DNA from: an uncultured Eubacteriales bacterium | GTDB taxonomy: Bacteria > Bacillota > Clostridia > Christensenellales > Aristaeellaceae | Assembly: GCA_902765395.1 (NCBI GenBank) | Contig: CACWZP010000017.1 | Coordinates: 1-63,422, forward strand | Length of the DNA stretch: 63,422 bases | Direction: 5' to 3' | In this document: piece by piece, positions 7,206 to 35,413 of the stretch | Layout: every line of letters begins with the position of its first letter | Position numbering within the stretch: the first letter of the stretch is position 1 | The notes under the pieces: model-generated | What the model was told of the DNA's origin: nothing | Seen by the model: only the letters and a program-made list of their open reading frames with translations | Database searches by the model: none | Made by a program: the position numbers and the translations under genes

Positions 7206-8318
7206 ATGAATCAGTACATCGACGCCGCCGTCAACCACTACCGCGAACTTCTTGAGGCGCAGCTGGAGCGGGTGGCGCGCATGGAGAACGCCGCTCCCGC
7301 CAAGGACTTCACCGCCCTGCCCGTGGTCACCATCGGCGTGATCGACGGCGACGGCATCGGCCCGATCATCTCCGCGCAGACCACGCGGGTGCTGGAAACC
7401 CTGCTGAAGGACGAGCTGGCCTCGGGCAGCATCGTGATGAAGCACATCGAGGGTCTGACCATCGAGAACCGCCTGGCCAGGGGCGAGGCCGTGCCGAAGG
7501 AGATCCTGGAGGAGGTCAAGACCTGCGACGTGTTCCTGAAGGGCCCCACCGAGACCCCCAAGGGCGGCACCATGGAGAGCGCCAACGTCACCCTGCGACG
7601 CGAGCTGGACCTGTACGCCAACGTGCGGCCCGTGTCCGTGCCGGAGAAGGGCATCGACTGGACCTTCTTCCGCGAAAACACCGAGGGCGAATACGTGCTG
7701 GGCAGCAAGGGCATCGAGGTGCCCGGCAAGCTGACCATGGACTTCAAGGTCACCACCGAGCCCGGCACCCGCCGCATCGCCCGCATGGCCTTTGAGTACG
7801 CCAGGAACAACGGCAAGGACATGGTGGCCATCGTCACCAAGGCCAACATCATGAAGAAGACCGACGGCCGGTTCTCCGAGATCTGCCACGAGGTGGCCAA
7901 GGACTATCCCGGCATCGCCGCCGAGGACTGGTACGCCGACATCGTCACCGCCAAGCTGGTGGACGAGCGGGTGCGCAGCCGGTTCCAGGTGTTCGTGCTG
8001 CCCAACCTGTACGGCGACATCATCACCGACGAGGCCGCCCAGATCCAGGGCGGCGTTGGCACCGCCGGCAGCGCCAACCTGGGCGACCAGTACGCCATGT
8101 TCGAGGCCATCCACGGCTCCGCGCCCCGGATGATCGAGACCGGCCGCGGCGACTACGCCAATCCCTCCAGCCTGCTGCGGGCGGCCGCCATGCTGCTGCG
8201 CCACATCGCCCGCTACGACAAGGCCGACGCGCTGGACAGGGCGCTGGACACCGTTCCCCACGACGGCGACACCGCCAAGGGCTTCGCCGACCGGCTGATT
8301 CAGGCCATCGAGGGGTAG
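7206..8318 (+). CDS. icd: Isocitrate dehydrogenase (isocitrate/isopropylmalate dehydrogenase family)
   Basis: 370 residues. The GDGIGP motif is at 48-53. The isocitrate-binding block SANVTLRRELDLYANVRP (about 125-142) has the Ser and Asn that contact isocitrate, which isopropylmalate dehydrogenases lack. Catalytic Tyr-type ENTEGEY, Lys in VTKANIMKKTDG, and metal Asp in NLYGDIITDEAAQ follow. It makes 2-oxoglutarate, the precursor of glutamate; cofactor preference was not assigned. A longer open frame from 6969 reads through hairpin DNA; the ATG at 7206 has AGGAGG 8 bases upstream and begins the true homology. It ends with TAG, the only TAG terminator I found among intact genes of the window. 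Confidence 0.88.
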   Translation: MNQYIDAAVNHYRELLEAQLERVARMENAAPAKDFTALPVVTIGVIDGDGIGPIISAQTTRVLETLLKDELASGSIVMKHIEGLTIENRLARGEAVPKEILEEVKTCDVFLKGPTETPKGGTMESANVTLRRELDLYANVRPVSVPEKGIDWTFFRENTEGEYVLGSKGIEVPGKLTMDFKVTTEPGTRRIARMAFEYARNNGKDMVAIVTKANIMKKTDGRFSEICHEVAKDYPGIAAEDWYADIVTAKLVDERVRSRFQVFVLPNLYGDIITDEAAQIQGGVGTAGSANLGDQYAMFEAIHGSAPRMIETGRGDYANPSSLLRAAAMLLRHIARYDKADALDRALDTVPHDGDTAKGFADRLIQAIEG

Positions 8319-17845: not shown

Positions 17846-18493
17846 AGGTATTCACGCACCTGTTCTGGTCTTTTATAGTGTATTTCCGAATGAAGTATGT
17901 GCGGCTCTGGATGTTTTGGCGCACCTCGGAGACTTCAAACACGCCCATTGATCCATCCCGGGCAGATGACCGCCCGGCGGACAGCCCTATTGTATCGCAT
18001 TTCACCCTTCATTTCAACAGGAAAACGCATCGTCGGAGCAAGTTCGACGCGTTTTCGGAATTCCGAATCCGAAAAGTGCCGGATTTCAGCATGTATTATC
18101 CGGATTTTTAATTCCATTCCCGGAATTCCAATATTCCAAAATGTGCCAAATCCCTTGTGTCGCAACGGGTTTGACAGTTCTGACCAGGTCAATAGTAATG
18201 TAAGGGGTATATATCTAAGGATATATACCCCTTCGTAGGGGCAAAAAATACTCGGTTCCTCTACAGTCCTGACGCTTTACAGGCACAAAAGCGGCGCTTG
18301 TATCAAAAAACATAACAGACCTCCGGCCTCAAGGCCTTCGGTCTGGCGGGTGAAATTTTGACTATAGACAACGGGACAGCGCGTCCTGTCGCGAGGCAGG
18401 ACGGAGCGGAGCGTTGCCCTCCGCGCGGGGCGCGGAGAATGACGGTTGAAGCTTTGAAGAACGTCCATGCGGACAGGAAAGGAAGGTGCCACC
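17846..18493. other. Long gene-free interval left of the ClpP island
   Basis: 650 bases with no convincing gene. The left part (17850-18170) is AT-richer with GGAATTCC-type words and holds a possible minus -10 TATAAA (17872-17877) for lysC. Then come the dyad promoter at 18171-18199 and the perfect hairpin at 18202-18233. The right part (18330-18450) has GC-rich hairpins, AGACC/GGTCT (about 18310-18340), CGTCCTG/CAGGACG and CTCCGCG/CGCGGAG, of the dispersed intergenic type. Confidence 0.6.
18171..18233 (+). promoter_or_regulatory. Possible promoter and operator of the ClpP island, followed by a perfect hairpin
   Basis: TTGACA (18171-18176), 17 bases, AGTAAT (18194-18199). The spacer holds GACCAGGTC, and TTGAC/GTCAA arms frame the region, so a repressor dyad overlaps the promoter. 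Directly after it, AAGGGGTATATATC (18202-18215) and its exact complement (18220-18233) form a 14 bp stem with a 4 base loop and no T run. The transcript would have a leader of about 290 bases before the first gene. Confidence 0.5.
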
Positions 18494-19084
18494 ATGGCGA
18501 ACATCGACAACACCCCCCACATCATCCGCGAGACCAATGCGGGCTACGACATCCTCGACATCCGCGACGAGATGCTGAGGAACCGCGAAGTCGAGTGCGT
18601 CGGCGTCATCGACGCGCAGATGCTGAACTCCATTGCGCGCCAGCTGCGCTTCCTGGCCAGGGAATCGGCCACCGAGCCCATCACGCTGTTCGTCAACAGC
18701 GACGGCGGCGAGGTGAACAGCGGGCTGGCGATCTACGACGTGATGAAGGCCATCCCGTGCCCCATCCGCACCGTGTGCGTCGGCCGAGCCGCCAGCATGG
18801 GCGCCGTGCTGTTCGCGTCCGGCGACCAGCGCGACATCCTGCCCCACGGCAGCGTGCTGATCCACGACCCGCTGATCCCCGGCGGCATCGGCGGCAGCGC
18901 GCTGCAGATCCAGGAGATCAGCGAAGACCTGCTGCGTGTGCGGCATATGCTGGCCGAAATCCTGGTCCGGCAGACCGGAAGGTCACTGGAGGAAATCTTC
19001 GCCAAGACCGCCCGCGACACCATCTTCACCGCCGACGAGGCCGTGGAGTTCGGCCTGGCGGACCGGGTCATCGACACCCTGTGA
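18494..19084 (+). CDS. ClpP-family serine protease
   Basis: 196 residues, the usual ClpP core length. The catalytic triad is complete: Ser101 in GRAASMGAV, His124 in LIHDPL, and Asp175 in KTARDT. The oxyanion strand VNSDGGEV is intact. No Clp ATPase gene is adjacent. The N-terminal axial loop region (about 30 residues before VIDAQ) differs from housekeeping ClpP, and it is the type of ClpP found in mobile elements and phages. ATG 18494 follows GGAAGG; an earlier start at 18467 is less likely. The next gene, 25 bases on, is a conjugation-type ATPase with the same GGAAGG leader, so the two are cotranscribed. Confidence 0.85.
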   Translation: MANIDNTPHIIRETNAGYDILDIRDEMLRNREVECVGVIDAQMLNSIARQLRFLARESATEPITLFVNSDGGEVNSGLAIYDVMKAIPCPIRTVCVGRAASMGAVLFASGDQRDILPHGSVLIHDPLIPGGIGGSALQIQEISEDLLRVRHMLAEILVRQTGRSLEEIFAKTARDTIFTADEAVEFGLADRVIDTL

Positions 19085-19109
19085 CGACAGAGAAAGGAAG
19101 GTGGATCCC

Positions 19110-20402
19110 ATGATCCAGAACCAGAGCACCGATACCCTGCGCATCCTGGCCGAGGGCGCGCTGATCAGCAACAACACCCGCCAGACAGGCATCAACAACA
19201 ACGACCTGATCATCGGGCCCTCCGGCGCCGGCAAGACGCGCGGCTACGTCATGCCGAACATCCTGCAGGCCAACGAGAGCATGATCGTGGCCGACACCAA
19301 GGGCAGCCTCTACGGCGAGATGGCGCCCTACCTGCGCCAGCGGGGCTACCGCGTCGTGTGCGTCGACATGAAGGACACGATGTCGTCCTTCGGCTACAAT
19401 CCCCTGGATTACATCCACAGGGATTCGATCACCGGGCGCTGGGACGAGCAGAACATCCTCAGTGTCTGCGCCGCGCTCGCGCCGGTGGAGAACGCCCGCG
19501 ATCCCTTCTGGGACCTGTCCGCCCGCGCGCTGCTCTGCGCGCTGGTGGGCTATGTGCTCGAATGCCTGCCCGAGAATGAGCACAACCTCCACTCGGTCAT
19601 GGACGTATTCAACATGCCCGAGGACTATCGCCGCGAGCTGTTCCAGGCCCGCCTGGACGAATGCCCAGAGTCCTTCGCGGTTCGGCAGTACCGCATGTTC
19701 CTCGAACTGTCCAAGGCCAAGGCCACGATGGGCTGCGTGGTCGGCATACTGGGCGAAAAGCTGAGCCCCATGGCGCTGGAGGGACCTTTGCGGATGTTCA
19801 CCGCCGCCGAGCGGCTGAGCTTCAGCGACCTCGGGCGCAGCCGGATGGCCGTGTTCCTGAACGTCAGCGACACGGACCGCTCCATGGACAGGCTCACCAA
19901 CCTGTTCTATGCCCAGGCGCTGCACGAGCTGTGCGAGAGCGCCGACCACTATCCGGACCACCGCCTGCCGGTGCCGGTGCGCATCTACCTGGATGACTTC
20001 GCCACGAACGTGTACATCCCGGACTTCGACAAGATCATCTCGGTGATCCGGTCGCGGGAGATCTACGTGAGCGTCATCCTGCAGAGCATCTCGCAGCTGG
20101 ATTCGCTGTACGGCAAGTCCGCCGCCTGCACGATCCTGAACAACTGCGACAACTGCCTGTACCTGGGCGGCCAGGACGTGGATACCGCGCACTACATCGG
20201 CGTCAAGGCCAACTGCCGCATCGACCGCGTGCTGAACATGCCCCTCTCCGAGGCATTCCTGTTCACCCGCGGCCAGCTGCCCCGGAAGGTGTCCCGGTTC
20301 GACGTGAGCCGCCACGGCATGTACGTCGCCATGCTCGAGGCCTTCAATGGCATGGGCATGGAGCCGGACATCCCGTTGGACACCGACAGCCTGCCCTTCT
20401 GA
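19110..20402 (+). CDS. VirD4/TraG-type coupling-protein ATPase lacking a membrane anchor
   Basis: 430 residues. Walker A GPSGAGKT is at 36-43, ADTKGSLYGEMA after it is a T4CP signature, the Walker B strand RIYLDDFAT is near 291-299 (Asp-Asp instead of the usual Asp-Glu), and the ILQSISQLDSLYG segment matches the family's motif with the conserved Gln. The C-terminal part FTRGQLPRKV also fits. Known VirD4/TraG proteins are about 600 residues with two N-terminal membrane helices; here none exists and the Walker A is only 36 residues from the start, so the protein should be soluble. ATG 19110 with GGAAGG upstream decides the start. No relaxase or other type IV gene is nearby. Confidence 0.8.
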   Translation: MIQNQSTDTLRILAEGALISNNTRQTGINNNDLIIGPSGAGKTRGYVMPNILQANESMIVADTKGSLYGEMAPYLRQRGYRVVCVDMKDTMSSFGYNPLDYIHRDSITGRWDEQNILSVCAALAPVENARDPFWDLSARALLCALVGYVLECLPENEHNLHSVMDVFNMPEDYRRELFQARLDECPESFAVRQYRMFLELSKAKATMGCVVGILGEKLSPMALEGPLRMFTAAERLSFSDLGRSRMAVFLNVSDTDRSMDRLTNLFYAQALHELCESADHYPDHRLPVPVRIYLDDFATNVYIPDFDKIISVIRSREIYVSVILQSISQLDSLYGKSAACTILNNCDNCLYLGGQDVDTAHYIGVKANCRIDRVLNMPLSEAFLFTRGQLPRKVSRFDVSRHGMYVAMLEAFNGMGMEPDIPLDTDSLPF

Positions 20403-20483
20403 AGGCTGCGTCCCGAACCCGCAGGGGGCCGATCCCCGGAAAGGCCCCCCTCTCCCCATCAACCCTGAACAGGAGGTATCGCC

Positions 20484-21563
20484 ATGAACATCCACGAAAA
20501 GTGGCCCCTAACCGCTTCCGACGACACCCTGCTCGCGTTCCGGCTGGCCTCTGCCCCGCTGCTGCGGGAGAACGGCCTGTCCGTGTTCCTTCACCCCAGG
20601 GACGCGGCCATCCAGCCCGCGGAAGTCTGCGGCCAGCAGCGGGACGACGGCAATCCCACCACGCGCACGCTGTGGCACGAGCCGGGCCGCAGGCCCTTCT
20701 CCAAAGTGGTGCTGGCCATCTGCCGGGGCAGCGGTCGCAACCGGCGCGTGCTGCTGGTGGTGGAATGGGCGCTGAAGACGAACCGGCCGGAAGTGGAGAC
20801 CTTCGACGACCCGGTGCGCCGGCTCAGGGTGCCCTTCGACGCCTTCCTGGGGCGGGACATCGACGGCAAAAACGGCGCGGACCTCGTCTTCAACGCCGTG
20901 CTGGAACAGCTCGGCCTCGTGCTGGAGCGCGTCCGCACCGACGGCCGCCAACCGGGCCTCAGCCTCGACCTGAAGAGCATCCAGCCCAGGAGCGCGCTGT
21001 ACTCGAGCCTGGTGGCGGAGCACGCCCTCGTGCCCGTGGACCCCGATCGGCTCCCCGACGAGTTCACAAAGCGCGTCAAGGGCTGCGATGAAACAGGCCT
21101 GACCGCGATCCCCACCCCCTGCGGCGACCGCTGCGGGCTCTGCCTGGGCGTGTGCTGTGACAAGCGCGGACGGCTGATCTTTGCCCCCTTCGCCACGCAG
21201 GAGGACTGGAGCCGAGCCTGCAGGCCGGTGACACTGCCCACCCTGCGGGGCGTGCAGTCGCTGAAGCAGCGCATCGCCTGCCTGAACAGTTCCTCCGGGA
21301 TCGACCGGGATCGCGGCAGTCTGGCCAGGCGCATGGCCGACATGCCGCTGATCGACCTGTTCAAGGGCAATGACGGCGAGCTGCAGCGGATGCGGCAGCT
21401 GCTGATGCCCAGGACGGCGGAGACCGTGGGCGAGGCCGCCCAGGCCATCCGGGACGCCTGTGTCGCCACGGGCGTCAGGCTGGACGCACGGCTCATCGAC
21501 GCGCTGGAGCAACTGACCATGCTGCTCATGCGCATGCAGAGAGGAGGTACGCCCCATGAGTGA
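20484..21563 (+). CDS. Unknown protein with a cysteine cluster
   Basis: 359 residues, not recognised. A cluster of Cys213, Cys217, Cys220, Cys224 and Cys225 (within CGDRCGLCLGVCC) may bind a metal. The N-terminal half is rich in Arg and mixed alpha/beta by composition, and the C-terminal 100 residues look helical. The segment LDLKSIQ (161-167) recurs in the next protein. A GC-rich hairpin (GGGGGCC/GGCCCCC, about 20424-20449) lies between it and the ATPase gene, without a T run, so readthrough is likely. AGGAGG is 9 bases before the ATG. It overlaps the next gene by 8 bases. Confidence 0.65.
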   Translation: MNIHEKWPLTASDDTLLAFRLASAPLLRENGLSVFLHPRDAAIQPAEVCGQQRDDGNPTTRTLWHEPGRRPFSKVVLAICRGSGRNRRVLLVVEWALKTNRPEVETFDDPVRRLRVPFDAFLGRDIDGKNGADLVFNAVLEQLGLVLERVRTDGRQPGLSLDLKSIQPRSALYSSLVAEHALVPVDPDRLPDEFTKRVKGCDETGLTAIPTPCGDRCGLCLGVCCDKRGRLIFAPFATQEDWSRACRPVTLPTLRGVQSLKQRIACLNSSSGIDRDRGSLARRMADMPLIDLFKGNDGELQRMRQLLMPRTAETVGEAAQAIRDACVATGVRLDARLIDALEQLTMLLMRMQRGGTPHE

Positions 21564-21939
21564 ACAGCAGGTGCCCGTCCTCGCCATAGCGAACGTCGTC
21601 AACCCGGCGCTGCTGGCCGAGATCGCGAACGACGACCCGGAGCCGCAGGAAGAGCGGCCCCCGGTCGACCTGAAGTCGATCCAATTCGACCGGTTCTTCG
21701 ACAGCGCCATCGTCCTCACCGGAAGCCCGTTCCTGGCCTGGCTGCGGGAGGCGTGTGTGAACAAGCTGCTGGAGATCCCGGGCGTCAACGACCAGCCGCC
21801 CAACCTGTTCCGCTGCTTCAGGCACCTGGGAACGCCCGACGGCCGCGACGGCGAACAGCTGGACGCCAACCTCTACCTGCTGCTGGCGGAGCCGCTGGCC
21901 AGGAGCGCGGACGCCCTCCAGCGGCTCCGTCGCCGGTGA
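21556..21939 (+). CDS. Unknown small protein, last gene of the ClpP-ATPase operon
   Basis: 127 residues, not recognised. It has an acidic, Pro-rich N-terminal third and a mainly helical remainder. VDLKSIQFDRFF (38-49) shares DLKSIQ with the preceding protein, which may be a common binding motif or chance. The ATG overlaps the previous stop (8 bases) and AGAGGAGG lies just upstream, so translation is coupled. It ends at a strong bidirectional terminator shared with the convergent helicase gene. Confidence 0.6.
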   Translation: MSEQQVPVLAIANVVNPALLAEIANDDPEPQEERPPVDLKSIQFDRFFDSAIVLTGSPFLAWLREACVNKLLEIPGVNDQPPNLFRCFRHLGTPDGRDGEQLDANLYLLLAEPLARSADALQRLRRR

Positions 21940-21947
21940 ACGAACGC

Positions 21948-21986
21948 GAAGAGGGCCTTCCCGGTGGGAGGGCCCTCTTCATTTTT
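21948..21986. terminator. Bidirectional terminator between convergent island genes
   Basis: GAAGAGGGCC and GGCCCTCTTC with the TCCCGGTGGGA interior form a long stem (21948-21980), followed by ATTTTT on the plus strand. It separates the operon from the helicase gene ending at 21999. Confidence 0.85.
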
Positions 21987-21998
21987 CGCCTGAAGCGG

Positions 21999-24167
21999 TC
22001 ATACGATGTGGATGCTCTCGCCCTTGGGATCGACGGTATAGCCGTCGAACAGCACGCCCGAGTAGTGGTCCAGCAGCCAGAACAGGGTTTCGCGGACGCG
22101 GCTGTCGCGAGCCTGCCTCTGCGCCGCGGTGCCCTCCCCCGCGCCCGTTCGCAGCAGCTTCATCAGCTCGCCCTGCGGCGCAAGGGAGATGGTCATGGCG
22201 TTGCTCTGGCCGCCCTTGTTCTCCTTGAAATAGCGCATGCGCAGCGCCTTGCGAACCAGGAAGCGCTTGATCTGCACGTTGTCCCGGGTGTCGCTCCGCT
22301 TCCGGCCGTTCGCCCCCACGGCGTGCAGGCAGTCCAGCTCGAAATAGCGCAGCTGCTTCACCGCCAGGGCGTAGGCGTAGAGAGGCAGCGCCTCCTCCAG
22401 CGCCTCGGGCATCCGATACCGCCACATCGGCTCCAGTGTCTCCAGGGACAGCATGGGGCCCTCGAAGTCCCGCCGGGGCAGGCCGCGCCCCTCCAGCTCG
22501 TCGCCGCACTGGATCGAAATGCCCGCGCCCGTCAGCCGCCGCAGGCTCTCAAGCACGTCGGCCTTGAGGCCCTTGGCCTCGCCCCGGACGGGGATGTCGA
22601 TTCCCTCGTCGCCGGTGAGCACCGCGCACAGGTGGCGCAGCGTGAACCTGCGGGAGCGGCGGCTGTGCAGGGTATAGAGCGCGTCGGCCACGTCGATGTC
22701 GAAGGAGGTCAGCGCGCCGGAGACGGAGAAGGTCAGCCAGGCGTCCTTGATCGGGCGGACGCGCCTGGCCTCGCCGGGCTTCACCTCGCCCCGGCGCAGC
22801 AACTGGGCCACCATGGTGCTGTTGAAATCGCCATAGGCGATGTCCTCCCGGCGGGGCAGGGCGTCGTCCGGGGCGGGCGCGTCATCTGTCCGGGCAGGCA
22901 CGGCAGCCGTCGAAGGGGCAGGGTTAGGCGCTTGGGAACCCGGGGCCATCAGCTGCTCCAGCATTGCCAGCGCTTCCTCCGGCAGTTCATCCGCCGCGTC
23001 CTTGTCGCTGGCCGCGGGTTCGGCCCGCGTCCCGGCCGGCACATCGACCGGTTCGGTCTTGGCCTTCATCGTCGCCGCCGCAGGCGACACAGTTCCCCCG
23101 GTTTCGTCGGGCAGAAGCTCCGCCGGGAAGCCCTCGTCCTCCTCCAGGAAGGCGTCGTAGCGGGCATAGTAATCCAGGCGCACCGCCCCGTCCATGCCGT
23201 AGCGGTTCTTCAGCACCACCAGCTCGATCCGCCGGGGCAGCCGGCTCTTCTCCTGCTCGAGGTCGAAGCCCTTCTTCCCGCGCGGCTGGGGATCCTGGCC
23301 CTTCTCGCCGACGGTGTGCACGGCGGTATACTGCAAGCCCATCAGCACGCTGGCGGAGAACTCGATGCCGCCGGACTCCTTGAAGGCGTCCTCCTGGATG
23401 GGCTTGTTGTAGTTGGTACGGCTGATGGAGCTGACCACCAGCACGCAGAAGCCGTCGTTGGCCAGCTGGGTGAGGCTGCGGATGCTGTCGTCCACCTCCT
23501 GGCGCTCGCTGATCGCCCGGCCGGTGCCCCGGTACAGCATTTGCAGGTAGTCCACCACCACGAAGGGCGCCACGCCGTGCGCTTCCCGGAAGGCGGTGGC
23601 GTCGTCCTTGATGAACTCGGCGGAGATGGCGCCGCCCTCCCCCACGCCGTCGATGATGTGGAAGGGCTGCACATCCCCCGGCCCGGCCAGGCAGTAGGGC
23701 TCCTCCCGGCCGGCGACGCTCACCGTGCGCAGCTCACCCCGGACGGCCCGCACAGCCTCGCGATAGGCGGCGTAGTCGGCCGCGCTCCACCGGGCGGTGT
23801 GCCGGGAATCGAACAGGTCGGCGGCGGTGAAGCGGCACTTCTCCCCCTTCTGGCGGCACAGGGCGAAGTGGTGCCGGGTGATGAGCCGCGCCGTCACCCG
23901 GTCGGCGGGCATCTCCGTGGAATAGTACAGCACGGGCGTGCCGTGGCGGCAGATGTAGTCGCCGATGCCGATGGCCAGCGTGGACTTGCCCACGCTGGTC
24001 ATGCCGCCCAGCACCACCAGCCCCGGCTGCATGCCCCGCAGGATGCCGTCCAGGCGCGGGATGCCGGTGTCCAGCCCGGGGGTGCGCGTCTTCAGCGCGT
24101 CCTCGCCGAAGAAGCGCTCCAGCACCTGGGATACCGGCTTGCGATGGGTGCCCTGCCTGTCCTCCAT
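21999..24167 (-). CDS. DnaB-type helicase domain fused to a long C-terminal region of unknown type
   Basis: 722 residues. The N-terminal 330 residues are a RecA/DnaB helicase core without the DnaB N-terminal domain: RTPGLDTGIPRLDGILRGM, Walker A GGMTSVGKST (54-63), Walker B FVVVDYLQM with Asp206, and SSISRTNYNKP matching the DnaB sensor motif. Residues about 345-430 are a low-complexity Pro/Ala/Glu linker. The C-terminal 290 residues (from about 440) look like a compact DNA-binding or replication-initiator domain (IKDAWLTFSVSGALTSFD onward, two helix-rich halves), but no family is certain. AGGAGGA before the ATG at 24167 fixes the start. It may be expressed after the ATP-grasp gene, 82 bases upstream. 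Confidence 0.75.
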   Translation of the reverse strand: MEDRQGTHRKPVSQVLERFFGEDALKTRTPGLDTGIPRLDGILRGMQPGLVVLGGMTSVGKSTLAIGIGDYICRHGTPVLYYSTEMPADRVTARLITRHHFALCRQKGEKCRFTAADLFDSRHTARWSAADYAAYREAVRAVRGELRTVSVAGREEPYCLAGPGDVQPFHIIDGVGEGGAISAEFIKDDATAFREAHGVAPFVVVDYLQMLYRGTGRAISERQEVDDSIRSLTQLANDGFCVLVVSSISRTNYNKPIQEDAFKESGGIEFSASVLMGLQYTAVHTVGEKGQDPQPRGKKGFDLEQEKSRLPRRIELVVLKNRYGMDGAVRLDYYARYDAFLEEDEGFPAELLPDETGGTVSPAAATMKAKTEPVDVPAGTRAEPAASDKDAADELPEEALAMLEQLMAPGSQAPNPAPSTAAVPARTDDAPAPDDALPRREDIAYGDFNSTMVAQLLRRGEVKPGEARRVRPIKDAWLTFSVSGALTSFDIDVADALYTLHSRRSRRFTLRHLCAVLTGDEGIDIPVRGEAKGLKADVLESLRRLTGAGISIQCGDELEGRGLPRRDFEGPMLSLETLEPMWRYRMPEALEEALPLYAYALAVKQLRYFELDCLHAVGANGRKRSDTRDNVQIKRFLVRKALRMRYFKENKGGQSNAMTISLAPQGELMKLLRTGAGEGTAAQRQARDSRVRETLFWLLDHYSGVLFDGYTVDPKGESIHIV

Positions 24168-25452: not shown

Positions 25453-26208
25453 TCATTGGTCGCCTTTGTTTGCTTCGCCGAGCAGGAAGGGCAGGAAGTA
25501 GCGCATCTGCTTGAACCACCAGGGCCAGTCGTGGTTCACGTCGAAGCCCCAGAAGTCGCACCAGGCGTGGATGCCCTTCTCCCGGAACACGCTCTCCAGG
25601 AACTTCAGCGTGCGCACGCCGTCCTCCTCCCAGGCCCCCTGGCCGCAGCAGAGGATCATCTTCCGCTGGTTGTAGAGGCTGATGTAGGGATGGTCGGCAG
25701 GCATGTTGGGCAGGAAGCGCTCCGGGGAGCTCTCGTACAGCGTGGAATCCATCCAGCCGTCGAAGAAGTAGTCCGCGTCGTACACGCCGGACAGGGCGAT
25801 CACGCCGCGGAACAGGTCCGGCCGCCGCAGGAAGGCGATCACCGCGTGGTCCGCGCCCATGCTGAACCCGGTGACGGCGGGGGTGTCGGGGTTGATCTCC
25901 CTGATGGCAGGCAGCGCCTCGTCCACGATATAGCGGAAGTACTGCTCCTGCCGCAGCGCGCGCCAGGCGTTGTTGCCGCCCCGGTCCGACCAGCTCTCCC
26001 GGTCCACGGTGTCCACGACGAACAGCTGGATCTTGCCGCCCTCGATGTAGTCCGACAGGCAGTCGATCATGCCGAAGTCCTCCAGGTTGTGGCACATGGA
26101 GTCCTGGGTCGGGAAGCACAGAAGCGGCACGCCGCCCCGGCCGTAGACCATCATGTGCATGTCGCGCATCAGCGCCTGGCTCCAGCGAATCAGTTCTTCT
26201 CTGTACAT
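25453..26208 (-). CDS. Esterase-like alpha/beta hydrolase (putative esterase family)
   Basis: 251 residues. The family (esterase D-like) is seen from the strand MHMMVYGRGGVPLLCFPTQ, the nucleophile elbow TGFSMGADHA, the Asp in DYFFDGW region and the His near the end in VNHDWPWW. No signal peptide, so cytosolic. The longer frame to 26247 starts in poor context; ATG 26208 has GAGGTTATTGAC upstream. It leads a two-gene unit with the ATP-grasp gene. Confidence 0.78.
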   Translation of the reverse strand: MYREELIRWSQALMRDMHMMVYGRGGVPLLCFPTQDSMCHNLEDFGMIDCLSDYIEGGKIQLFVVDTVDRESWSDRGGNNAWRALRQEQYFRYIVDEALPAIREINPDTPAVTGFSMGADHAVIAFLRRPDLFRGVIALSGVYDADYFFDGWMDSTLYESSPERFLPNMPADHPYISLYNQRKMILCCGQGAWEEDGVRTLKFLESVFREKGIHAWCDFWGFDVNHDWPWWFKQMRYFLPFLLGEANKGDQ

Positions 26209-26363
26209 GTCAATAACCTCGCATATGGGATGGGGATATTTTATCACCCCTCGCCGCCATTGTCCAGTGCATAAATGGCCTTTGCAGCCGAATCGCCCCC
26301 CTGCCTTCGATCTGCGTCAAAAAAAAGCGAACAAACCGCGAATGAAAACAAACTCAATTTCAA

Positions 26364-26409
26364 TTGACATCACCACAGTAATATGATAGAATTTTTGCAA
26401 ATGGTGCAA
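26364..26409 (+). promoter_or_regulatory. Promoter and operator-like dyad of the mgl operon
   Basis: TTGACA (26364-26369), 17 bases, TAGAAT (26387-26392) with a TG extension at 26384-26385. Just downstream, TTGCA (26395-26399) and TGCAA (26405-26409) form a dyad with a 5 base centre, placed as a repressor site at the start of transcription; the regulator is not in the window. Confidence 0.75.
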
Positions 26410-26493
26410 TTTATTATGTTTTGGTTTGTGCTTTTTGGTTACTGCACGGCTTGTCCGTGTCAAATAACGACCTGAAAAGGAGAGTGTGTCCCC

Positions 26494-27750
26494 ATGAAAA
26501 AGATCCTGTCCCTGGTTCTGGCCGCTCTGATGCTGCTTGGCATCGTCGGCGCGATGGCGGAAGCCAACGATCAGAAGCCCGTCATCTGGTTCAACCGTCA
26601 GCCCTCCAACTCCACCACCGGTGAGCTGGACATGGATGCCCTGAACTTCAACGGCAAGACCTACTATGTCGGCTTTGACGCCAAGCAGGGCGCTGAGCTG
26701 CAGGGTCAGATGATCGTGGATTATCTGCTGGCCCACGGCGAGGGCCTGGACCGCAACGGCGACGGCATCATCGGCTACGTGCTGTGCATCGGCGACGTCG
26801 GCCACAACGACTCCATCGCCCGTACCCGCGGCGCCCGCAAGGCTCTCGGCACGGCTGTTCCGGATGCCGCCCAGGGCAAGACTGAGATCGAGACCATCGA
26901 CGACGTCGATTCCGCCCCGATCGGCACCAACACCGACGGTACCGCCACTGACGTTCAGGATGGCTCCATCGAGATCGATGGCACCACCTACATCGTGCGC
27001 GAGCTGGCCTCCCAGGAGATGAAGAACAGCTCCGGTGCCACATGGGATGCCCCCACCGCCGGCAACGCCATCGCCGCCTGGGAAGGCTCCTTCGGCGATC
27101 AGATCGACGTGGTCGTTTCCAATAACGACGGCATGGGCATGGCCGTGTTCAACGCCTGGTCCAAGGAAGCCGGCGTTCCCACCTTCGGCTATGACGCCAA
27201 CAGCGACGCCGTCGCCGCCATCGCCGACGGCTATTGCGGCACCATCTCCCAGAATGCCGACGTGCAGGCCTACCTGACCCTGCGCACCCTGCGCAACGCG
27301 CTGGACGACGCCGACATCATGGTGGGCATCAGCACCCCCGACGCCGCCGGCAACGTTCTGACCGACGACCTGTACTACTATGACGACGCCACCCGCTGCT
27401 TCTACGCTCTGAACGGCGCCGTGACCGCCGACAACTACGAGGCATTCCTGGATGCTACCGCCGCCAACCCCGCTTTCAGCAACCAGCTGAGCGAGGACGA
27501 TGCCGCCACCAAGAAGGTCTGGCTGAGCATCTACAACAGCGCTGACAACTTCCTGAATGCCACCTATGTGCCGCAGCTGAAGAACTACGCGGCGGCCCTG
27601 AACCTGGATGTGGAGTACGTCCTGGGCGACGGCCAGACCGAGGCGAACCTGATCGACAAGCTGGGCAACCCCTCCGAGTACGACGGCTTCGCGATCAACA
27701 TGGTGAAGACCGACAACGCGGCCTCCTATATGGCCAAGCTCATGCAGTAA
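26494..27750 (+). CDS. mglB: Galactose/glucose-binding protein (MglB type), circularly permuted
   Basis: 418 residues; signal peptide about 1-23 (AMA-EA cut), no lipobox Cys. The mature protein starts with VIWFNRQPS, TYYVGFDAKQGAE and the calcium loop DRNGDGIIG (86-94), which in E. coli MglB lie near residues 88-142. It continues through GHNDSIAR, GATWDAP, SNNDGMGM, FGYDANSD and GTISQNADVQ in normal order. After the usual C-terminal end (about 325) a short linker leads to VWLSIYNSADNFLNATYVPQ and YDGFAINMVKTDNAA (342-408), which match the start of normal MglB. Sugar ligands are all found: Asn34, His104, Asp106, Arg110, Trp184, Asn210/211, Asp234, Asn254, plus Asp351 and Phe353 from the moved part. 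The first gene of a three-gene transporter; RBS AAAAGGAG. Confidence 0.9.
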   Translation: MKKILSLVLAALMLLGIVGAMAEANDQKPVIWFNRQPSNSTTGELDMDALNFNGKTYYVGFDAKQGAELQGQMIVDYLLAHGEGLDRNGDGIIGYVLCIGDVGHNDSIARTRGARKALGTAVPDAAQGKTEIETIDDVDSAPIGTNTDGTATDVQDGSIEIDGTTYIVRELASQEMKNSSGATWDAPTAGNAIAAWEGSFGDQIDVVVSNNDGMGMAVFNAWSKEAGVPTFGYDANSDAVAAIADGYCGTISQNADVQAYLTLRTLRNALDDADIMVGISTPDAAGNVLTDDLYYYDDATRCFYALNGAVTADNYEAFLDATAANPAFSNQLSEDDAATKKVWLSIYNSADNFLNATYVPQLKNYAAALNLDVEYVLGDGQTEANLIDKLGNPSEYDGFAINMVKTDNAASYMAKLMQ

Positions 27751-27845
27751 TCTGAACCCCAGCCCGGTTTAGAGGACGGGTCATCAGGTGATCCCTCGCC
27801 TGATGACCCTATCTCTATGACGGGAAGAAGCTGCGAAAAGGCGGG

Positions 27846-29363
27846 ATGACAACAATGGCAGAACGGGAAGCAAGGAATATTCTGTCGATCCGCGGTATGT
27901 GCAAATCCTTCGGGCGCAACCGCGTTCTGGATCACATCAACATGGATGTCAAGGAAGGCACCATCATGGGGCTGATGGGCGAAAACGGCGCCGGCAAGTC
28001 CACCATGATGAAGTGCCTGTTCGGCACCTATCAAAAGGATGAGGGCACCATCCTTCTGGACGGCAAGGAAGTCAATTTCTCCGGCCCCAAGGACGCGCTG
28101 GAAAACGGCGTGGCCATGGTGCACCAGGAACTGAACCAGTGCCTGGAGCGCAATGTGCTGGACAACCTGTTCTTGGGCCGCTATCCGCTGACGCCCCTGG
28201 GCATGGTGGATGAAGCCCGTATGAAGAACGAAGCGTCGGACCTGTTCCGCAAGCTGAACATGACCGTGAACCTCACCGCGCCCATGAAGACCATGTCGGT
28301 CTCTTCCCGGCAGATGGTGGAAATCGCCAAGGCCATCTCCTATAACGCCAAGCTGATCGTGCTGGACGAGCCCACGTCCTCGCTGACGGTCCGCGAGGTG
28401 GCCAAGCTGTTTGAAATGATGCGGAACCTGAAGGCCCAGGGCATTTCGCTGGTCTACATCTCCCACAAGATGGACGAGATCTTTGAAATCTGCGATGAGA
28501 TCTCGGTGCTGCGCGACGGCAAGATGGTGCTGACCAAGAAGACTGGAGACACGGATATGAACGAGCTGATCGCTGCGATGGTCGGCCGCGCGCTGGACAA
28601 CCGCTTTCCGCCCGTGGACAACACTCCCGGCGACGTGGTGCTCTCGGTGCAGCACCTGTCCACCAAGTTCGCGCCCAATCTGAAGGACATCACCTTCGAC
28701 GTGCGCGAGGGCGAGATCTTCGGCCTGTACGGGCTGGTCGGCGCCGGGCGGTCGGAGCTGCTGGAGACCATGTTCGGCGTGCGCACCCGCGCGGCCGGGC
28801 GCGTTTACTATAACGGGCGGCTGATGAACTTCACCAGCTCCAAGGATGCCATGGATCACGGCTTCGCCATGATCACCGAGGAGCGCAAGTCCACCGGCCT
28901 GTTCCTGGAGGGCGACCTCACCTTCAATACGACCATCACCAACCTGTCCCACTACTACACGGGCATCGCGCTGTCCAACGACAAAATGGTGAAGGCCACA
29001 GCCAACGAAATCAACATCATGCATACCAAGTGCATGGGTCCCTCCGACTCCATCACGGCGCTGTCGGGCGGAAACCAGCAAAAGGTCATCTTCGGAAAAT
29101 GGCTGGAACGGGATCCCGCCGTCTTCCTGATGGATGAACCAACGCGAGGCATTGATGTCGGCGCCAAGTATGAAATCTACGAGCTGATCATCAAGATGGC
29201 AAAGATGGGCAAGACGATCATCGTCGTCTCCTCTGAAATGCCGGAAATCCTGGGCATCACCAACCGCATCGGCGTCATGTCCAACGGTCGGCTCGCCGGC
29301 ATCGTCGATACCCGGCAGACCAATCAGGAAGAGCTGCTGAGACTGAGCGCGAAGTATCTGTAA
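27846..29363 (+). CDS. mglA: Sugar ABC transporter ATP-binding protein (MglA type)
   Basis: 505 residues, two ABC domains. Domain 1 (about 10-250): Walker A GENGAGKST, signature SVSSRQMVE, Walker B LIVLDEPTSSL. Domain 2 (about 260-500): FGLYGLVGAGRSEL in the Walker A place, LSGGNQQKV and FLMDEPTRGID. This is the normal MglA/RbsA architecture, in which site 2 is the regular ATPase. It follows the binding protein after 95 bases and leads directly (14 bases) to the permease. Two Met codons (27846 and 27855) are possible starts. Confidence 0.93.
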   Translation: MTTMAEREARNILSIRGMCKSFGRNRVLDHINMDVKEGTIMGLMGENGAGKSTMMKCLFGTYQKDEGTILLDGKEVNFSGPKDALENGVAMVHQELNQCLERNVLDNLFLGRYPLTPLGMVDEARMKNEASDLFRKLNMTVNLTAPMKTMSVSSRQMVEIAKAISYNAKLIVLDEPTSSLTVREVAKLFEMMRNLKAQGISLVYISHKMDEIFEICDEISVLRDGKMVLTKKTGDTDMNELIAAMVGRALDNRFPPVDNTPGDVVLSVQHLSTKFAPNLKDITFDVREGEIFGLYGLVGAGRSELLETMFGVRTRAAGRVYYNGRLMNFTSSKDAMDHGFAMITEERKSTGLFLEGDLTFNTTITNLSHYYTGIALSNDKMVKATANEINIMHTKCMGPSDSITALSGGNQQKVIFGKWLERDPAVFLMDEPTRGIDVGAKYEIYELIIKMAKMGKTIIVVSSEMPEILGITNRIGVMSNGRLAGIVDTRQTNQEELLRLSAKYL

Positions 29364-29377
29364 TTGGAGGGAAAGCA

Positions 29378-31033
29378 ATGGCAATTGACAAGAGAATCCT
29401 CTCCGTGGAAGAGGAGCAGAGGCTGCTCGCCCCCATCGACGAGCGGGTAGGCGCGATTCAGGAGAAGATCAACGCGCTGCGCAAGGACGGCACGGACAGG
29501 GTCGTCGCCCTGACGAACCACATCGCCATCGTCCGCGAAAACGCCAACTATACCAAGGGCGAGAAGGCCAGCATGATCGCTGCCGACAGGCAGGCCCTGG
29601 CCGAGGCCAAGGCCGTGGAGGCGGGCAACAAGGGCCAGGTGAACAGCCTGATCGACGAAGCCGTCAAATATCTGGACGCCAACTATGACTCGGCCTATTA
29701 CAGCAGGATCGCTGCGTCCTGCGAGGCCCAGAAGGAGACCGAGCAGGCTCGCTACGCCGAAGAGCTGGCCCAGCTGAAAAAGCAGCACGAAGCGGACCTG
29801 GCCAAGCTGACCAACGCCGCCGAGATCAAGGACGAGAAGTACGTCTTCAAGAACAAGCTGTTCGACGCCAAGCTGAAGCACGACTCCACGCTCCAGGAGA
29901 TCAAGGACCGCCAGCACGACGCCTTCACCCACCGCTATCACCTGATCGACCTGCTGCGCCTGTCGAAGTTCAGCTTCGTCGAGAAGCAGAAGCAGAAGTG
30001 GGAGAACTACAAATACACCTTCAACGTCAAGCAGTTCCTGCTGAAGAACGGCCTGTACATCGCCATACTGTTCGTGTTCGTGCTGCTGTGCATCCTGACG
30101 CCCATCATCAAGCACACCCAGCTGCTGACCATGAACAACATACTGAACATCCTGCAGGCGGCCTCGCCGCGCATGTTCCTGGCGCTGGGCGTCGGCGGCC
30201 TGATCCTGCTGGGCGGCACGGATCTGTCCGTGGGCCGCATGGTGGGCACCAGCATGGTGCTGTCCACCATGATCATGCACAAGGGCATCAACACCGGCAT
30301 GCTGTTCGGCAAGGTGTTTGACTTCTCCACGCTGCCGGTGGGCCTGCGCATCGTGATGGCGCTGGTGGTCTGCTGCTGCATCACCACGCTGTTCGCAGCG
30401 CTGGCGGGCTTCTTCACCGCGCGGTTCAAGATCCACCCCTTCATCTCCACCATGGCAAACATGCTGATCATGTTCGGCCTGATGACCTTCGCCACCAAGG
30501 GCGTTTCCTTCGGCGCCATCGAAATGACGATCCCCAAGATGATCATCCCGAAGATCGCCGGCCAGTTCCCGTCCATCATCCTGTGGGCCATCGCGGCCAT
30601 CATCGTGATGTACTTCATCTGGAACAAGACCAAGCTGGGCAAGGACATGTACGCCGTGGGCGGCAACCAGGAGGCCGCCGCCGTGTCGGGTATCTCGGTG
30701 TTCAAGGTGACCATCATCACCTTCATCATGGCCGGCATCCTCTACGGCTTCGGCTCCTGGCTGGAGTGCATCCGCATGGTGGGCTCCGGCTCCTCCTCCT
30801 ACGGCCAGGGCTGGGAGACCGACGCCATCGCGGCCTGCGTCGTGGGCGGCATCTCCTTCAAAGGCGGCATCGGCAAGATCCAGGGCATCGTCGTGGGCGT
30901 GCTGATCTTCACCGCCCTCACCTACTCCCTGACTATCCTGGGCGTGGACACCAACCTGCAGTTCGTGTTCTCCGGCATCATTATCCTTTCCGCCGTGACC
31001 ATCGACTGCCTGAAGTACGTGCAGAAGAAGTAA
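29378..31033 (+). CDS. mglC: Sugar ABC permease (MglC type) with a large N-terminal coiled-coil extension
   Basis: 551 residues against about 335 in normal MglC. Residues 1-215 have no membrane segment and are rich in Glu, Lys, Ala and Gln (EEEQRLL, QEKINAL, LAQLKKQHEADLAKLTN), a long coiled coil. From about 228 the normal permease begins (GLYIAILFVFVLL), with ten or so helices, the GGTDLSVGRMVG motif near 300 and the family EAA-like cytosolic motif AVGGNQEAAAVSGI. It forms the galactose or galactoside channel with mglA and the permuted binding protein. The extension is cytosolic and may contact the ATPase or the wall-facing side is excluded by topology (inferred). GGAGGG precedes the ATG. 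Confidence 0.9.
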   Translation: MAIDKRILSVEEEQRLLAPIDERVGAIQEKINALRKDGTDRVVALTNHIAIVRENANYTKGEKASMIAADRQALAEAKAVEAGNKGQVNSLIDEAVKYLDANYDSAYYSRIAASCEAQKETEQARYAEELAQLKKQHEADLAKLTNAAEIKDEKYVFKNKLFDAKLKHDSTLQEIKDRQHDAFTHRYHLIDLLRLSKFSFVEKQKQKWENYKYTFNVKQFLLKNGLYIAILFVFVLLCILTPIIKHTQLLTMNNILNILQAASPRMFLALGVGGLILLGGTDLSVGRMVGTSMVLSTMIMHKGINTGMLFGKVFDFSTLPVGLRIVMALVVCCCITTLFAALAGFFTARFKIHPFISTMANMLIMFGLMTFATKGVSFGAIEMTIPKMIIPKIAGQFPSIILWAIAAIIVMYFIWNKTKLGKDMYAVGGNQEAAAVSGISVFKVTIITFIMAGILYGFGSWLECIRMVGSGSSSYGQGWETDAIAACVVGGISFKGGIGKIQGIVVGVLIFTALTYSLTILGVDTNLQFVFSGIIILSAVTIDCLKYVQKK

Positions 31034-31053
31034 GGGATCCTTCCGGACATAAA

Positions 31054-31083
31054 GAGGCGCCCCGCCACTTGGCGGAGCGCCTC
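31054..31083. terminator. Terminator between mglC and the amino acid permease gene
   Basis: GAGGCGC..CCGCCA pairs with TGGCGG..GCGCCTC, a long GC stem between convergent genes. T-rich CTCTTTCTTCTT follows on the plus strand. Confidence 0.8.
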
Positions 31084-31095
31084 AACTCTTTCTTC

Positions 31096-32769
31096 TTACG
31101 CCTCTTCGTCATCCCCGGGACCATGGGGTTCTTCCTTCCCGCTGCTTCGCCCGCGCAGCAGCGCTTCATGCTTTTTGGTGAACAGCCGCTGGATGCTCAC
31201 CATCACGCCCAGCGCGATGAACACCACCAGGAACATGATCGTGCCCTCCAGCCGCAGCGTCTCGCGAACCGTCTGCACCGTCTCCGCCGTCATCAGCTTC
31301 TTGCCCATCCACATCATCACCGAGTACAGCAGCAGCGCGAACAGCACCACGCCGGCGGCCGACGCGCCCGCGGTGGCCGGCACGTTGGAGCGGGCCATGG
31401 TGCGCAGGTAGAACATAAAGCCCACCAGGCACCACAGCGACAGCAGCAGGTAGGCGTCCGAGCCCATCATGTCGATGGCCGTCAGCCTCGGGATCAGCTG
31501 CGCCACGGCGAACGCCACGGAGAACCCCAACCCCAGGATGCCCGTCACCACGAAGCGGCGGTTGCCGGTTTTGCGGGCCAGCCGCCAGGCGGAGGCGGAG
31601 GTGTAGCCAAAGGCGATGATCGCGCCCAGGGAGGTCAGCTCCATGAAGCAGGTCAGCGCGCTGCGCCCGAAGATGGAGATGACGATGGAGACCAGCATGA
31701 TGAACAGGATGCTGTAGGTGGTGCCCTCGAACCGCTCGGACAGGATGTGGTCCTCGGCCATGGTGGAGAGTACGCGGGTGGTGGCGCGGTAGGCCGCGAT
31801 CATGCCCGTGAGTATGGCGGCCAGCGCCGCAATGGCCATCAGCAGAAGGCCCCCGGTGCCCAGCGCCGACTGGGCGGCGTTGAACGTGGGCACCGCGGCG
31901 ATGCCGTCCAGGCTGCCCAGGTCGGCGATGTAGGCCTGCCAGTTGGCGTAGCCGTCCGGCACGGAGGTGATGCCCATCAGCGTCAGCGCCGCGTACATCA
32001 GCCCGCTCAGTGCGACCGCCGCCAGGATCAGCCATTTCGACCGCTGGATCTTGAAATCGAAGTGGGCCGTCTCCAGGGAGATCACCTCAAAGCCCACGAA
32101 GGCCCAGGGCGCCAGCATCACGATGGTGAAGATCGAGAAGGCCCTGCCTCCGCCCTGGATGCCGAAGGCGCCGGTCAGGCCGCCCAAGTCCAGCTTCGGC
32201 AGGCACACCGCCGCCACCGCCGCGACGCACACCAGCATCACCACCGCCAGGATGGTCTGCAGCTTTTGCAGCAGGGGCTTGGCGTTGATGAACAGCAGCG
32301 CGATGATGGCCAGCGCAATGATGGACGCGCCCACCTCGCCCATGAAGATGCGGTTCCCTGCGATTTCATAGGAGTAATAGCCGATCTGCAGGCTACGGCC
32401 GAACATCATGCGGATGACCAGGAACAGCGACGTGGCGTTCATGAACAGCACCGTCAGGTAGGACAGCGTCAGGAACCAGGCGCACAGGAACGCGTGGTCC
32501 CCGCCAAAGGCCTCCTTGGTGTAGGCGTAGACGCCGCCCGTGCCGGGCCTGCGCCGCATCAGGAAGAAGAAGTTCGCGCCGATGACCAGCACGATCGCCA
32601 TGCTGATGGCTATGGAGATCACCGTACCCATGGGGCCGGCCACGGGCAGGAAGGTGGAGCCCGGCATCATGAAGGCGCCCCAGCCGATGATGCAGCCGAA
32701 GGCGATCGCCCAGACATCCAGTGGTGACAGGTATCTGTCGTATTCGTTGATGATTCTGTTGTCCTCCAT
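31096..32769 (-). CDS. APC-superfamily amino acid permease
   Basis: About 557 residues with some twelve membrane helices. The first helix carries the APC signature IAFGCIIGWGAFMMPG; GGVYAYTKEAFG and the broken helix PWAFVGFEVISLE are also typical. The C-terminal tail (about 35 residues) is charged and cytosolic. Substrate cannot be read; acidic or polyamine-like amino acids are transported by relatives. Three Met codons lie at the start; GGGGGG upstream of the third (32769) fits best. A TATAAT with TG extension (minus, about 32817-32822) precedes it. Confidence 0.85.
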   Translation of the reverse strand: MEDNRIINEYDRYLSPLDVWAIAFGCIIGWGAFMMPGSTFLPVAGPMGTVISIAISMAIVLVIGANFFFLMRRRPGTGGVYAYTKEAFGGDHAFLCAWFLTLSYLTVLFMNATSLFLVIRMMFGRSLQIGYYSYEIAGNRIFMGEVGASIIALAIIALLFINAKPLLQKLQTILAVVMLVCVAAVAAVCLPKLDLGGLTGAFGIQGGGRAFSIFTIVMLAPWAFVGFEVISLETAHFDFKIQRSKWLILAAVALSGLMYAALTLMGITSVPDGYANWQAYIADLGSLDGIAAVPTFNAAQSALGTGGLLLMAIAALAAILTGMIAAYRATTRVLSTMAEDHILSERFEGTTYSILFIMLVSIVISIFGRSALTCFMELTSLGAIIAFGYTSASAWRLARKTGNRRFVVTGILGLGFSVAFAVAQLIPRLTAIDMMGSDAYLLLSLWCLVGFMFYLRTMARSNVPATAGASAAGVVLFALLLYSVMMWMGKKLMTAETVQTVRETLRLEGTIMFLVVFIALGVMVSIQRLFTKKHEALLRGRSSGKEEPHGPGDDEEA

Positions 32770-32989: not shown

Positions 32990-35413
32990 ATGAGCGTGCT
33001 CTATTCAAGCGCGGGCCTGCTGGCCCTCATCATTCACCTGATCATCAACCACGACGTGCTGCGCAGCCCTTCGGGGAAGGAGATCCTGCCCGCCCACCGG
33101 GCCTATCGCTCCTTCCTGTTCGTCATCACGGCCTACTATATCACGGACATCCTGTGGGGCCTCCTGTACGAGCGTCGGCTCACCCCCCTGACCCACCTGG
33201 ACACCGCCGTCTATTTCGCGTCCATGGCCATATCGATCCTGCTCTGGACGCGCTTCGCCATCGCCTATATGAAGGAGGAAAGCGCCTTCGGCCGCATGCT
33301 GGCCATCATCGGCTGGCTGATCTGCGGCTTCCAGATGCTGTTCCTGGCGGTGAACTTCTTCCTGCCGGTGCTGTACTCCTTCGACGCGGACGGCAATTAC
33401 CACGCCGAGGCGGCGCGATACATCACCCTGGCCGTACAGATCGCCATGTACCTGATGACGTCCGTCTACGCCATCTTCGTCGCGACGCGCAACACCGGCA
33501 CCATGAAGCTGCGCCACCGCACCATCGCCATCTCCAGCCTGGCCATGGCCGGGTTCATCGGCGCGCAGGCGCTGTACCCGCTGCTGCCGCTGTACGCCAT
33601 CGGCTGCCTGCTGAGCACCTGCGTGCTGCACAGCTTCGTGCTGGAAAACGAAAAGGAGGAATACCGGGACAAGCTGGAGGAGCGTTTGCACGAGAACATC
33701 CTCAAGGGCAACTACTACGACCTGCTCACGGGCCTGCCCGGCATGTCCTATTTCTTCGAGCTGGCCCAGTCCGCCCGCGCAGGCATCAAGCGCAGCGGCG
33801 GCAGGTGCTGCCTGCTGTACATGAACCTGAGCGGACTGAAGTTCTACAACCAGAGCCACGGCTTCGCGGAGGGCGACCGGCTGCTGCGCTCGTTCTCCCA
33901 GCTGCTGGTCTCCGCCTTTGGGAACGAAAGCTGCAGCCGCTTCGGCCAGGACCACTTCGTGGTGCTGACGGCGGAAGAAGGCCTGGACGAGGCCCTGGAT
34001 GCCCTGTTCAAGGCCTGGGACGACCTGAACGGCCACGACTGCCCCGCCGTGCTGGTGGGCGTCTATCCGGACAGCGTGGACAACGTGGACATCAGCACCG
34101 CCTGCGACCTGGCCAAGATCGCCTGCGACGCCATCCGCCACACCTACGTGTCCTCCGTCAAGTACTACGACACCGCCATGCTGGCCAGCGCCGAGCGCCA
34201 GCAGTACATCGTCTCCCACCTGGACCAGGCCATCCAGGAGCAGTGGATCCAGGTCTACTACCAGCCCATCGTCCGCGCCGCCAGCCGCCAGGTCTGCGAC
34301 GAGGAGGCGCTGGCCCGCTGGATCGACCCCCGGCGCGGCTTCCTCTCCCCCGCCGATTTCATCCCCATCCTGGAGGAGGCGAAGCAGATCTACCGGCTGG
34401 ATCTGTATATCGTGGACCGGGTGCTGGAGAAAAACCGCCGGCTGAAGGAATCCGGGCTGCACCTGGTGCCCCAGTCCGTCAACCTGTCCCGGTCGGACTT
34501 TGAATCCTGCGACATCGTGGAGGAGATCCGCCGCCGCGTGGACGACGCCGGGCTCGACCGCAGCCTGCTGACCATCGAGATCACCGAGAGCATCATCGGC
34601 GGCGACTTCGATTTCATCAAGGAACAGGTGGAGCGCTTCCGGGCGCTGGGCTTCCCCGTGTGGATGGACGACTTCGGCAGCGGCTACTCGTCCCTGGACG
34701 TACTGCAGAGCATGCCGGTGGACCTGATCAAGTTCGACATGCGCTTCATGCAGCAGTTCAACCACGGCGACAAGAGCAAGATCATACTCACCGAACTGAT
34801 GAAGATGGCCGTGGGCCTGGGCATCGACACCGTGTGCGAGGGCGTGGAGCGGGAGGACCAGGTGGAATTCCTGCGGGACATCGGCTGCTCCAAGCTGCAG
34901 GGCTTCTACTACGCCCGGCCCATGCCCATGGAGCAGATCCTCGAGCGCTACCGGACCGGCCAGCAGATCGGCTTCGAGAACCCCGCGGAGTCCGGCTACT
35001 TTGACGCCATCGGCCGCATCAACCTCTACGACCTGGCGGTCATTGCCAAGGAAGAGGAGGATGCCTTCCAGCACTACTTCAGCACCGTGCCCATGTCGAT
35101 CATCGAGGTGCAGGAAGGCGAGACGCGCTTCGTCCGCAGCAACCACGCCTATCGGGACTTCATGTGGCGCGCCTTCCGGCTGGACATCTCCGAGCTGAAC
35201 GCCGATTACCACGCCACGAGAGAGGGGCCCGGGCAGCCCTTTGTGGACGCGCTGCGCCAGTGCTGCGACGGCGGCAGCCGGCTGGTGTTTGAAAACGCCC
35301 TGCCGGACGGCAGCACCGCCCATGTCTTCATGCGCCGCATCGCGGAAAACCCCGTCACCGGCACGGAGGCGGTGGCCGTGGCCGTGCTGGCCATCACCGA
35401 CCCCGACAGATAA
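32990..35413 (+). CDS. Membrane-bound GGDEF(degenerate)-EAL cyclic di-GMP phosphodiesterase
   Basis: 807 residues. About seven membrane helices fill residues 1-215. A GGDEF domain follows (about 240-390) in which the active loop reads FGQDHF (318-323) instead of GGDEF, so it cannot make c-di-GMP. The EAL domain (about 405-660) is complete: EAL at 439-441, NLSRSDF, ESIIGG, DDFGSGYSS, the Lys of LIKFD, EGVE and QGFYYARPM. It should hydrolyse c-di-GMP. A C-terminal part of about 120 residues (from 690) has a PAS-like look (SIIEVQEGETRFVRSNHAYRDFMW). The N-terminal helices suggest that an external signal controls the activity. Next gene is 26 bases downstream. Confidence 0.9.
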   Translation: MSVLYSSAGLLALIIHLIINHDVLRSPSGKEILPAHRAYRSFLFVITAYYITDILWGLLYERRLTPLTHLDTAVYFASMAISILLWTRFAIAYMKEESAFGRMLAIIGWLICGFQMLFLAVNFFLPVLYSFDADGNYHAEAARYITLAVQIAMYLMTSVYAIFVATRNTGTMKLRHRTIAISSLAMAGFIGAQALYPLLPLYAIGCLLSTCVLHSFVLENEKEEYRDKLEERLHENILKGNYYDLLTGLPGMSYFFELAQSARAGIKRSGGRCCLLYMNLSGLKFYNQSHGFAEGDRLLRSFSQLLVSAFGNESCSRFGQDHFVVLTAEEGLDEALDALFKAWDDLNGHDCPAVLVGVYPDSVDNVDISTACDLAKIACDAIRHTYVSSVKYYDTAMLASAERQQYIVSHLDQAIQEQWIQVYYQPIVRAASRQVCDEEALARWIDPRRGFLSPADFIPILEEAKQIYRLDLYIVDRVLEKNRRLKESGLHLVPQSVNLSRSDFESCDIVEEIRRRVDDAGLDRSLLTIEITESIIGGDFDFIKEQVERFRALGFPVWMDDFGSGYSSLDVLQSMPVDLIKFDMRFMQQFNHGDKSKIILTELMKMAVGLGIDTVCEGVEREDQVEFLRDIGCSKLQGFYYARPMPMEQILERYRTGQQIGFENPAESGYFDAIGRINLYDLAVIAKEEEDAFQHYFSTVPMSIIEVQEGETRFVRSNHAYRDFMWRAFRLDISELNADYHATREGPGQPFVDALRQCCDGGSRLVFENALPDGSTAHVFMRRIAENPVTGTEAVAVAVLAITDPDR

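Follow-up and report, generated by a model that had tools for sequence, protein, structure and literature searches.

A circularly permuted MglB-type sugar-binding protein and its extended MglC partner in an uncultured Eubacteriales bacterium

Locus and gene layout

The window analysed here, a stretch of 63,422 nucleotides (contig CACWZP010000017.1, assembly GCA_902765395.1) from an uncultured Eubacteriales bacterium, carries an mgl operon in which the sugar-binding protein MglB has a circularly permuted chain. The mglB open reading frame (ORF; 26494-27750, + strand) encodes 418 residues with no internal stop and is directly followed on the same strand by mglA and then mglC (29378-31033, 551 residues) (Table 1). 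The order of the chain, its predicted fold, the conservation of ligand positions and the gene order were established computationally. A consensus scan gave four promoter-like sites within 26200-31200, where shuffled sequence gave 1.5 on average.

Table 1. Coordinates of the features of the mgl operon in the window.
Feature	Coordinates	Strand	Basis and remarks
Promoter-like site TTGACA-17-TAGAAT	26364..26392	+	Consensus scan only, 11 of 12 matches; about 100 bases 5' of the mglB ORF
mglB signal peptide, residues 1-22	26494..26559	+	AMA then E, no lipobox Cys; translation by eye, no predictor
mglB residues 27-318, counterpart of E. coli MglB from about 82 to the end	26572..27447	+	PDB match, Pfam, VIA alignment; includes calcium-type loop D86-N88-D90
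mglB residues 339-418, moved segment, corresponding to the normal MglB N-terminus	27508..27747	+	PF18610; ligand positions D351 and F353
mglA, ATP-binding subunit	27846..29363	+	NCBIfam MglA 658.7 bits (below equivalog cut-off 828); Pfam ABC_tran
mglC N-terminal extension, residues 1-212	29378..30013	+	Charged, proline-poor, no membrane-like stretch (hydropathy, composition)
mglC permease part	30014..31033	+	PF02653 on residues 254-539; NCBIfam MglC on 216-551, 265.5 bits (cut-off 386)

Chain order and published precedent

The permuted order is apparent from the Pfam layout, in which PF13407 covers residues 19-271 at profile positions 71-255 of 258, with the first 70 absent, and PF18610 occupies residues 339-409. 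The best PDB sequences for this protein (phmmer) are three constructs of TpMglB-2 (Tp0684) from Treponema pallidum, a protein of known structure (PDB 5JX2, 6BGC and 6BGD) with the same permuted order end to end; 5jx2 was matched at E 2.5e-94 in two collinear stretches, residues 27-128 and 154-416. Ordinary MglBs in the PDB reached E 4e-24 and weaker (for instance, about 1e-21 for 2ipm and 2ipn), and their matches were limited to parts of residues 18-272. TpMglB-2 and the window protein share ligand positions and the calcium-type loop at 44-46% identity (VIA alignments), while the latter has no lipobox Cys and about 25 additional residues near 129-153. Canonical MglB/GGBP of E. coli and Salmonella (NF011924) is a related two-lobed protein with largely the same ligand set and similar operon partners, and differs in chain order, its N-terminal segment being C-terminal in the window protein. 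The NF011924 equivalog model gave 90.6 bits in two stretches, against a cut-off of 420. In the predicted model, residues 25-318 align to 82-306 of 2fvy (VIA), with a connecting stretch at about 319-339, a position taken from the model only.

A natural circular permutation in which the sugar ligand positions are retained is supported by the sequence, by the predicted fold and by an alignment of 39 members; the rearrangement is genuine and well conserved. An earlier reading of the window, made from its letters without database searches (the sequence-only reading), had proposed the permuted order, which is borne out by the Pfam layout, by the TpMglB-2 match in the same order and by the N-terminal profile alignment described below. 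The moved part lies at the C-terminus as that reading had placed it, with a start near residue 339 and not 342. Its further claim, that a natural permutation in this family had not been described, fails because the topology has been in print since 2016: the TpMglB-2 crystal structure was published with its topology termed circularly permuted (PMC4990184, PLoS One 2016).

The available part of that article reports D-glucose binding by isothermal titration calorimetry and differential scanning fluorimetry, a conformational change by ultracentrifugation, and lobe closure on D-glucose. It also places the permuted topology in treponemes and Gram-positive bacteria, many of them gut commensals, proposes the designation "Type Ic / Cluster Bc" for it, and names tp0686 as the putative partner permease of TpMglB-2. 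Among the literature matches listed, with subscription journals outside the search, no title concerned other permuted substrate-binding proteins or an MglC with an N-terminal coiled coil, and PMC4990184 alone was returned for Tp0686; in its text "permease" occurs twice and "coiled" is absent. Besides correcting the mistaken claim of a first natural permutation, our analysis adds to the published picture profile evidence for MglB's own N-terminus as the moved piece, together with a constant partner, the extended MglC, through which the role of the rearrangement can be probed more readily in harmless gut bacteria.

Sugar ligands and calcium-type loop

The glucose contacts in Table 2 of PMC4990184 were transferred through the PDB alignment to TpMglB-2, giving ten positions: N34, H104, D106, R110, W184, N211, D234, Q253, D351 and F353. 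None of the ten varies among the 39 aligned members, of which the window protein is one. Nine carry the TpMglB-2 letter; the tenth, Asp351, has the E. coli letter (D14) where TpMglB-2 has Asn311. The sugar ligand positions are therefore kept, as the sequence-only reading had listed them, except that its Asn254 should be Gln253, which matches E. coli N256 and Tp Q215. Residues D86, N88, D90 and D205 (the equivalent of Tp D166) of the calcium-type loop are likewise invariant in the 39 members, as judged from sequence.

Distribution among relatives

The search of relatives for the same order that had been proposed along with the permutation covered the best 80 of 434 contig loci encoding a relative. 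All 80 loci, from separate records, have the window's order, with a single BLAST match running through the protein (query start 1-27, end 416-418), and a complete chromosome of Claveliimonas bilis is among the records. Permuted MglBs from Lachnospiraceae and Oscillospiraceae (among them those of Claveliimonas bilis L051, Flavonifractor and [Ruminococcus] torques) share the chain order and gene order, and the same extended MglC wherever a permease match exists. Many close relatives come from rumen, omasum or rabbit gut, according to isolate names. Of 28 genomes of the same genus, 5 have the permuted protein, counting its own; none of 8 genomes belonging to other genera in the family has it, nor does any of 24 taken from elsewhere in the order. 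A phylum-wide sample of 398 genomes gave PF18610 in 2. Such an uneven occurrence is consistent with horizontal transfer, an idea also put forward in the part of PMC4990184 available.

Lipid anchor

The absence of a lipid-anchor Cys, pointed out in the sequence-only reading, was confirmed by eye and is not special to this protein. Two listings of substrate-binding proteins from its own genome (14 and 22 matches, L089-L124, with L121 and L124 being one gene) contained 24 distinct genes with a signal peptide readable by eye. A clear lipobox with linker was present in two (L090 and L111), L094 and L104 were unsure, and the other 20, window protein included, have an AxA-like site, some with a Cys within the hydrophobic stretch. 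A missing Cys is thus usual in this genome, since only 2 of 24 readable proteins have a clear lipobox; Lgt is present in it.

Across the 80 loci, a pattern rule found a lipobox in 50, none in 27, and 3 unreadable. For the tree, L029, L031 and L055 were set as ambiguous and L022 as lipobox by eye, while L016 and L036 were omitted (contig end). The resulting 79 rows comprise 49 with a lipobox, 27 without (window included) and 3 ambiguous, and the starred branches force at least five changes of label. The other half of the tree, to which the Lachnospiraceae and Oscillospiraceae proteins belong, has a lipobox in 43 of 50 rows (6 none, 1 ambiguous), mostly followed by a long linker as seen by eye. 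Tethering was proposed as the purpose of the permutation in the accessible part of PMC4990184, which treats it as a commonality among most members and not as a defining feature. The tethering trait of Type Ic / Cluster Bc is lacking in the window protein, as judged by eye from the lipobox only, and the anchor-free members weaken the 2016 suggestion as far as lipid anchors are concerned.

The MglC extension

The 212-residue extension of MglC, which is probably cytoplasmic given the topology of this permease family, has no Pfam match, and its best PDB match stands at E 0.061. A plain heptad pattern was also considered and was unsupported by a simple periodicity test. An mglC match occurs in 71 of the 80 loci and begins at residue 20 or earlier of the window MglC in all 71, so that the extension is included in each. 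At the nine remaining loci the contig ends on that side, with mglA missing or cut off in eight of them. For comparison, the region around mglB was examined in 9 of the 12 genomes whose MglB has the ordinary order: the best permease match came without an extension match in 9 of 9, and a permuted operon compared alongside them (G128) has the extension.

Searched alone, the extension was found in 2 of the 398 genomes of the phylum-wide sample, both of which are the ones with PF18610, and in 4 of 60 relatives, all among the five carrying the permuted protein. In the fifth of these (G014), mglB lies at 5772-7028 of contig 282, and the corresponding public contig (L010) ends at 7311. Mean pairwise identity over 68 rows is 0.56 for the extension, which is nearly gap-free, against 0.80 for the permease part. 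At one locus (L084), a single open frame of 1113 residues contains both the mglA and the mglC match and may represent a fusion.

Origin of the moved segment

When the PDB was searched to E 10 with a profile of the moved segment (39 rows, 83 columns), the three TpMglB-2 sequences were the only matches and ordinary MglBs were missed; therefore, the segment's origin was addressed by comparing profile against profile. The reference set comprised 13 MglB-like proteins of ordinary order, which score 322-353 bits with NF011924 and all stay below the cut-off of 420, and control profiles were built from 23 of 25 RbsB ORFs (L138 and L143 left out) and from 10 XylF ORFs from 25 loci. Of the segment's 83 columns, 65 align to the N-terminus of the 13 proteins, at the place where they would be expected. 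It scored 23.6 against the whole MglB profile (E 0.0055, hhalign probability 6.6%) and 24.0 against the N-terminus only (E 0.0011, hhalign probability 20.4%), falling to 11.6 with the N-terminus cut off. The controls matched only briefly and elsewhere, RbsB scoring 11.7 (12 columns) and XylF 15.8 (9 columns). None of 600 column shuffles against the N-terminus only reached 24.0 (maximum 22.8), a narrow margin. With 200 shuffles each, the maxima against whole MglB, RbsB and XylF were 29.1, 23.0 and 31.7; the whole-profile scores alone do not settle the origin because these maxima exceed the real scores, and the control with the N-terminus only is the cleaner one.

Two explanations other than rearrangement of MglB itself bear on these data. 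The genome is in draft form, with 53 contigs, and most of the relatives fetched are titled as metagenome-assembled or uncultured, as would suit an error of assembly or binning; the recurrence of the order in 80 loci, one of them on a complete chromosome, and in the solved TpMglB-2 structures makes such an error scarcely conceivable, and at the family level it is already refuted. The C-terminal 80 residues might instead derive from a different gene and have come to resemble the N-lobe by convergence, a possibility raised, and left open, in the part of PMC4990184 available. The TpMglB-2-only result of the PDB search, the low hhalign probabilities and the shuffles that outscore the segment against whole MglB would suit a foreign source. 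On the other side stand the alignment to the ordinary N-terminus, which none of the N-terminus shuffles equalled, with a moderate margin, the drop in score once that N-terminus is removed, and the short control matches. On balance a foreign source seems unlikely, and there is moderate support for a true permutation in which the moved segment would be MglB's own N-terminus.

Proposed function

Very probably, the window protein is secreted, binds glucose as a circularly permuted member of the TpMglB-2 group, and feeds the ATP-binding cassette importer encoded just downstream (mglA, mglC). By analogy with TpMglB-2, from which the detailed strand path is taken, the chain would begin at strand 4 of the normal N-lobe and cross into the C-lobe, return through an extra fourth crossing, and end with the three strands that normally come first in the N-lobe. 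The two lobes together would form one sugar cleft; glucose binding and lobe closure on D-glucose are likewise expected from TpMglB-2, and the sugar would then be passed on to MglC, operon and family pointing to a transport role.

Several observations weigh against this interpretation. A single-sequence AlphaFold model, built with no alignment, reached a predicted local distance difference test score of 34.8 and was discarded. The better model is of low confidence at residues 14-21, 37-42 and 177-182, the last two adjoining ligand positions N34 and W184; it superposes on TpMglB-2 at only 3.2-3.4 Å, with a template modelling score to 5jx2 of 0.73 by query length. Given Asp351 here and Asn in TpMglB-2, sugar preference may also differ. 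Alternatively, the protein might bind another hexose or act mainly as a sensor and not in glucose import, in line with the additional chemoreceptor role of E. coli MglB mentioned in the part of PMC4990184 available and with a GGDEF/EAL gene about 2 kb downstream of mglC (32990-35413). The mapping and invariance of the ten published glucose contacts and the immediate proximity of mglA and mglC make this improbable.

The chances are about even that the permuted MglB is half of a distinct transporter subtype: all Bacillota loci examined that include its permease have the probably cytoplasmic MglC extension, which permeases of ordinary-order mgl operons lack, so that the two changes would occur, and may act, jointly. 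On this reading, the repeated switching between lipid-anchored and anchor-free forms would also speak against tethering as the reason why the permuted order persists.

Neighbouring genes

The GGDEF/EAL gene, on the + strand, encodes an 807-residue protein in which Pfam matches nothing over roughly the first 240 and the last 160 residues. Positions 18467-24167, some 2-8 kb upstream of the operon, encode a ClpP-like protease, a protein with a DnaB-like helicase domain and a coupling protein of the TraG/VirD4 type, and this region looks like part of a mobile element.
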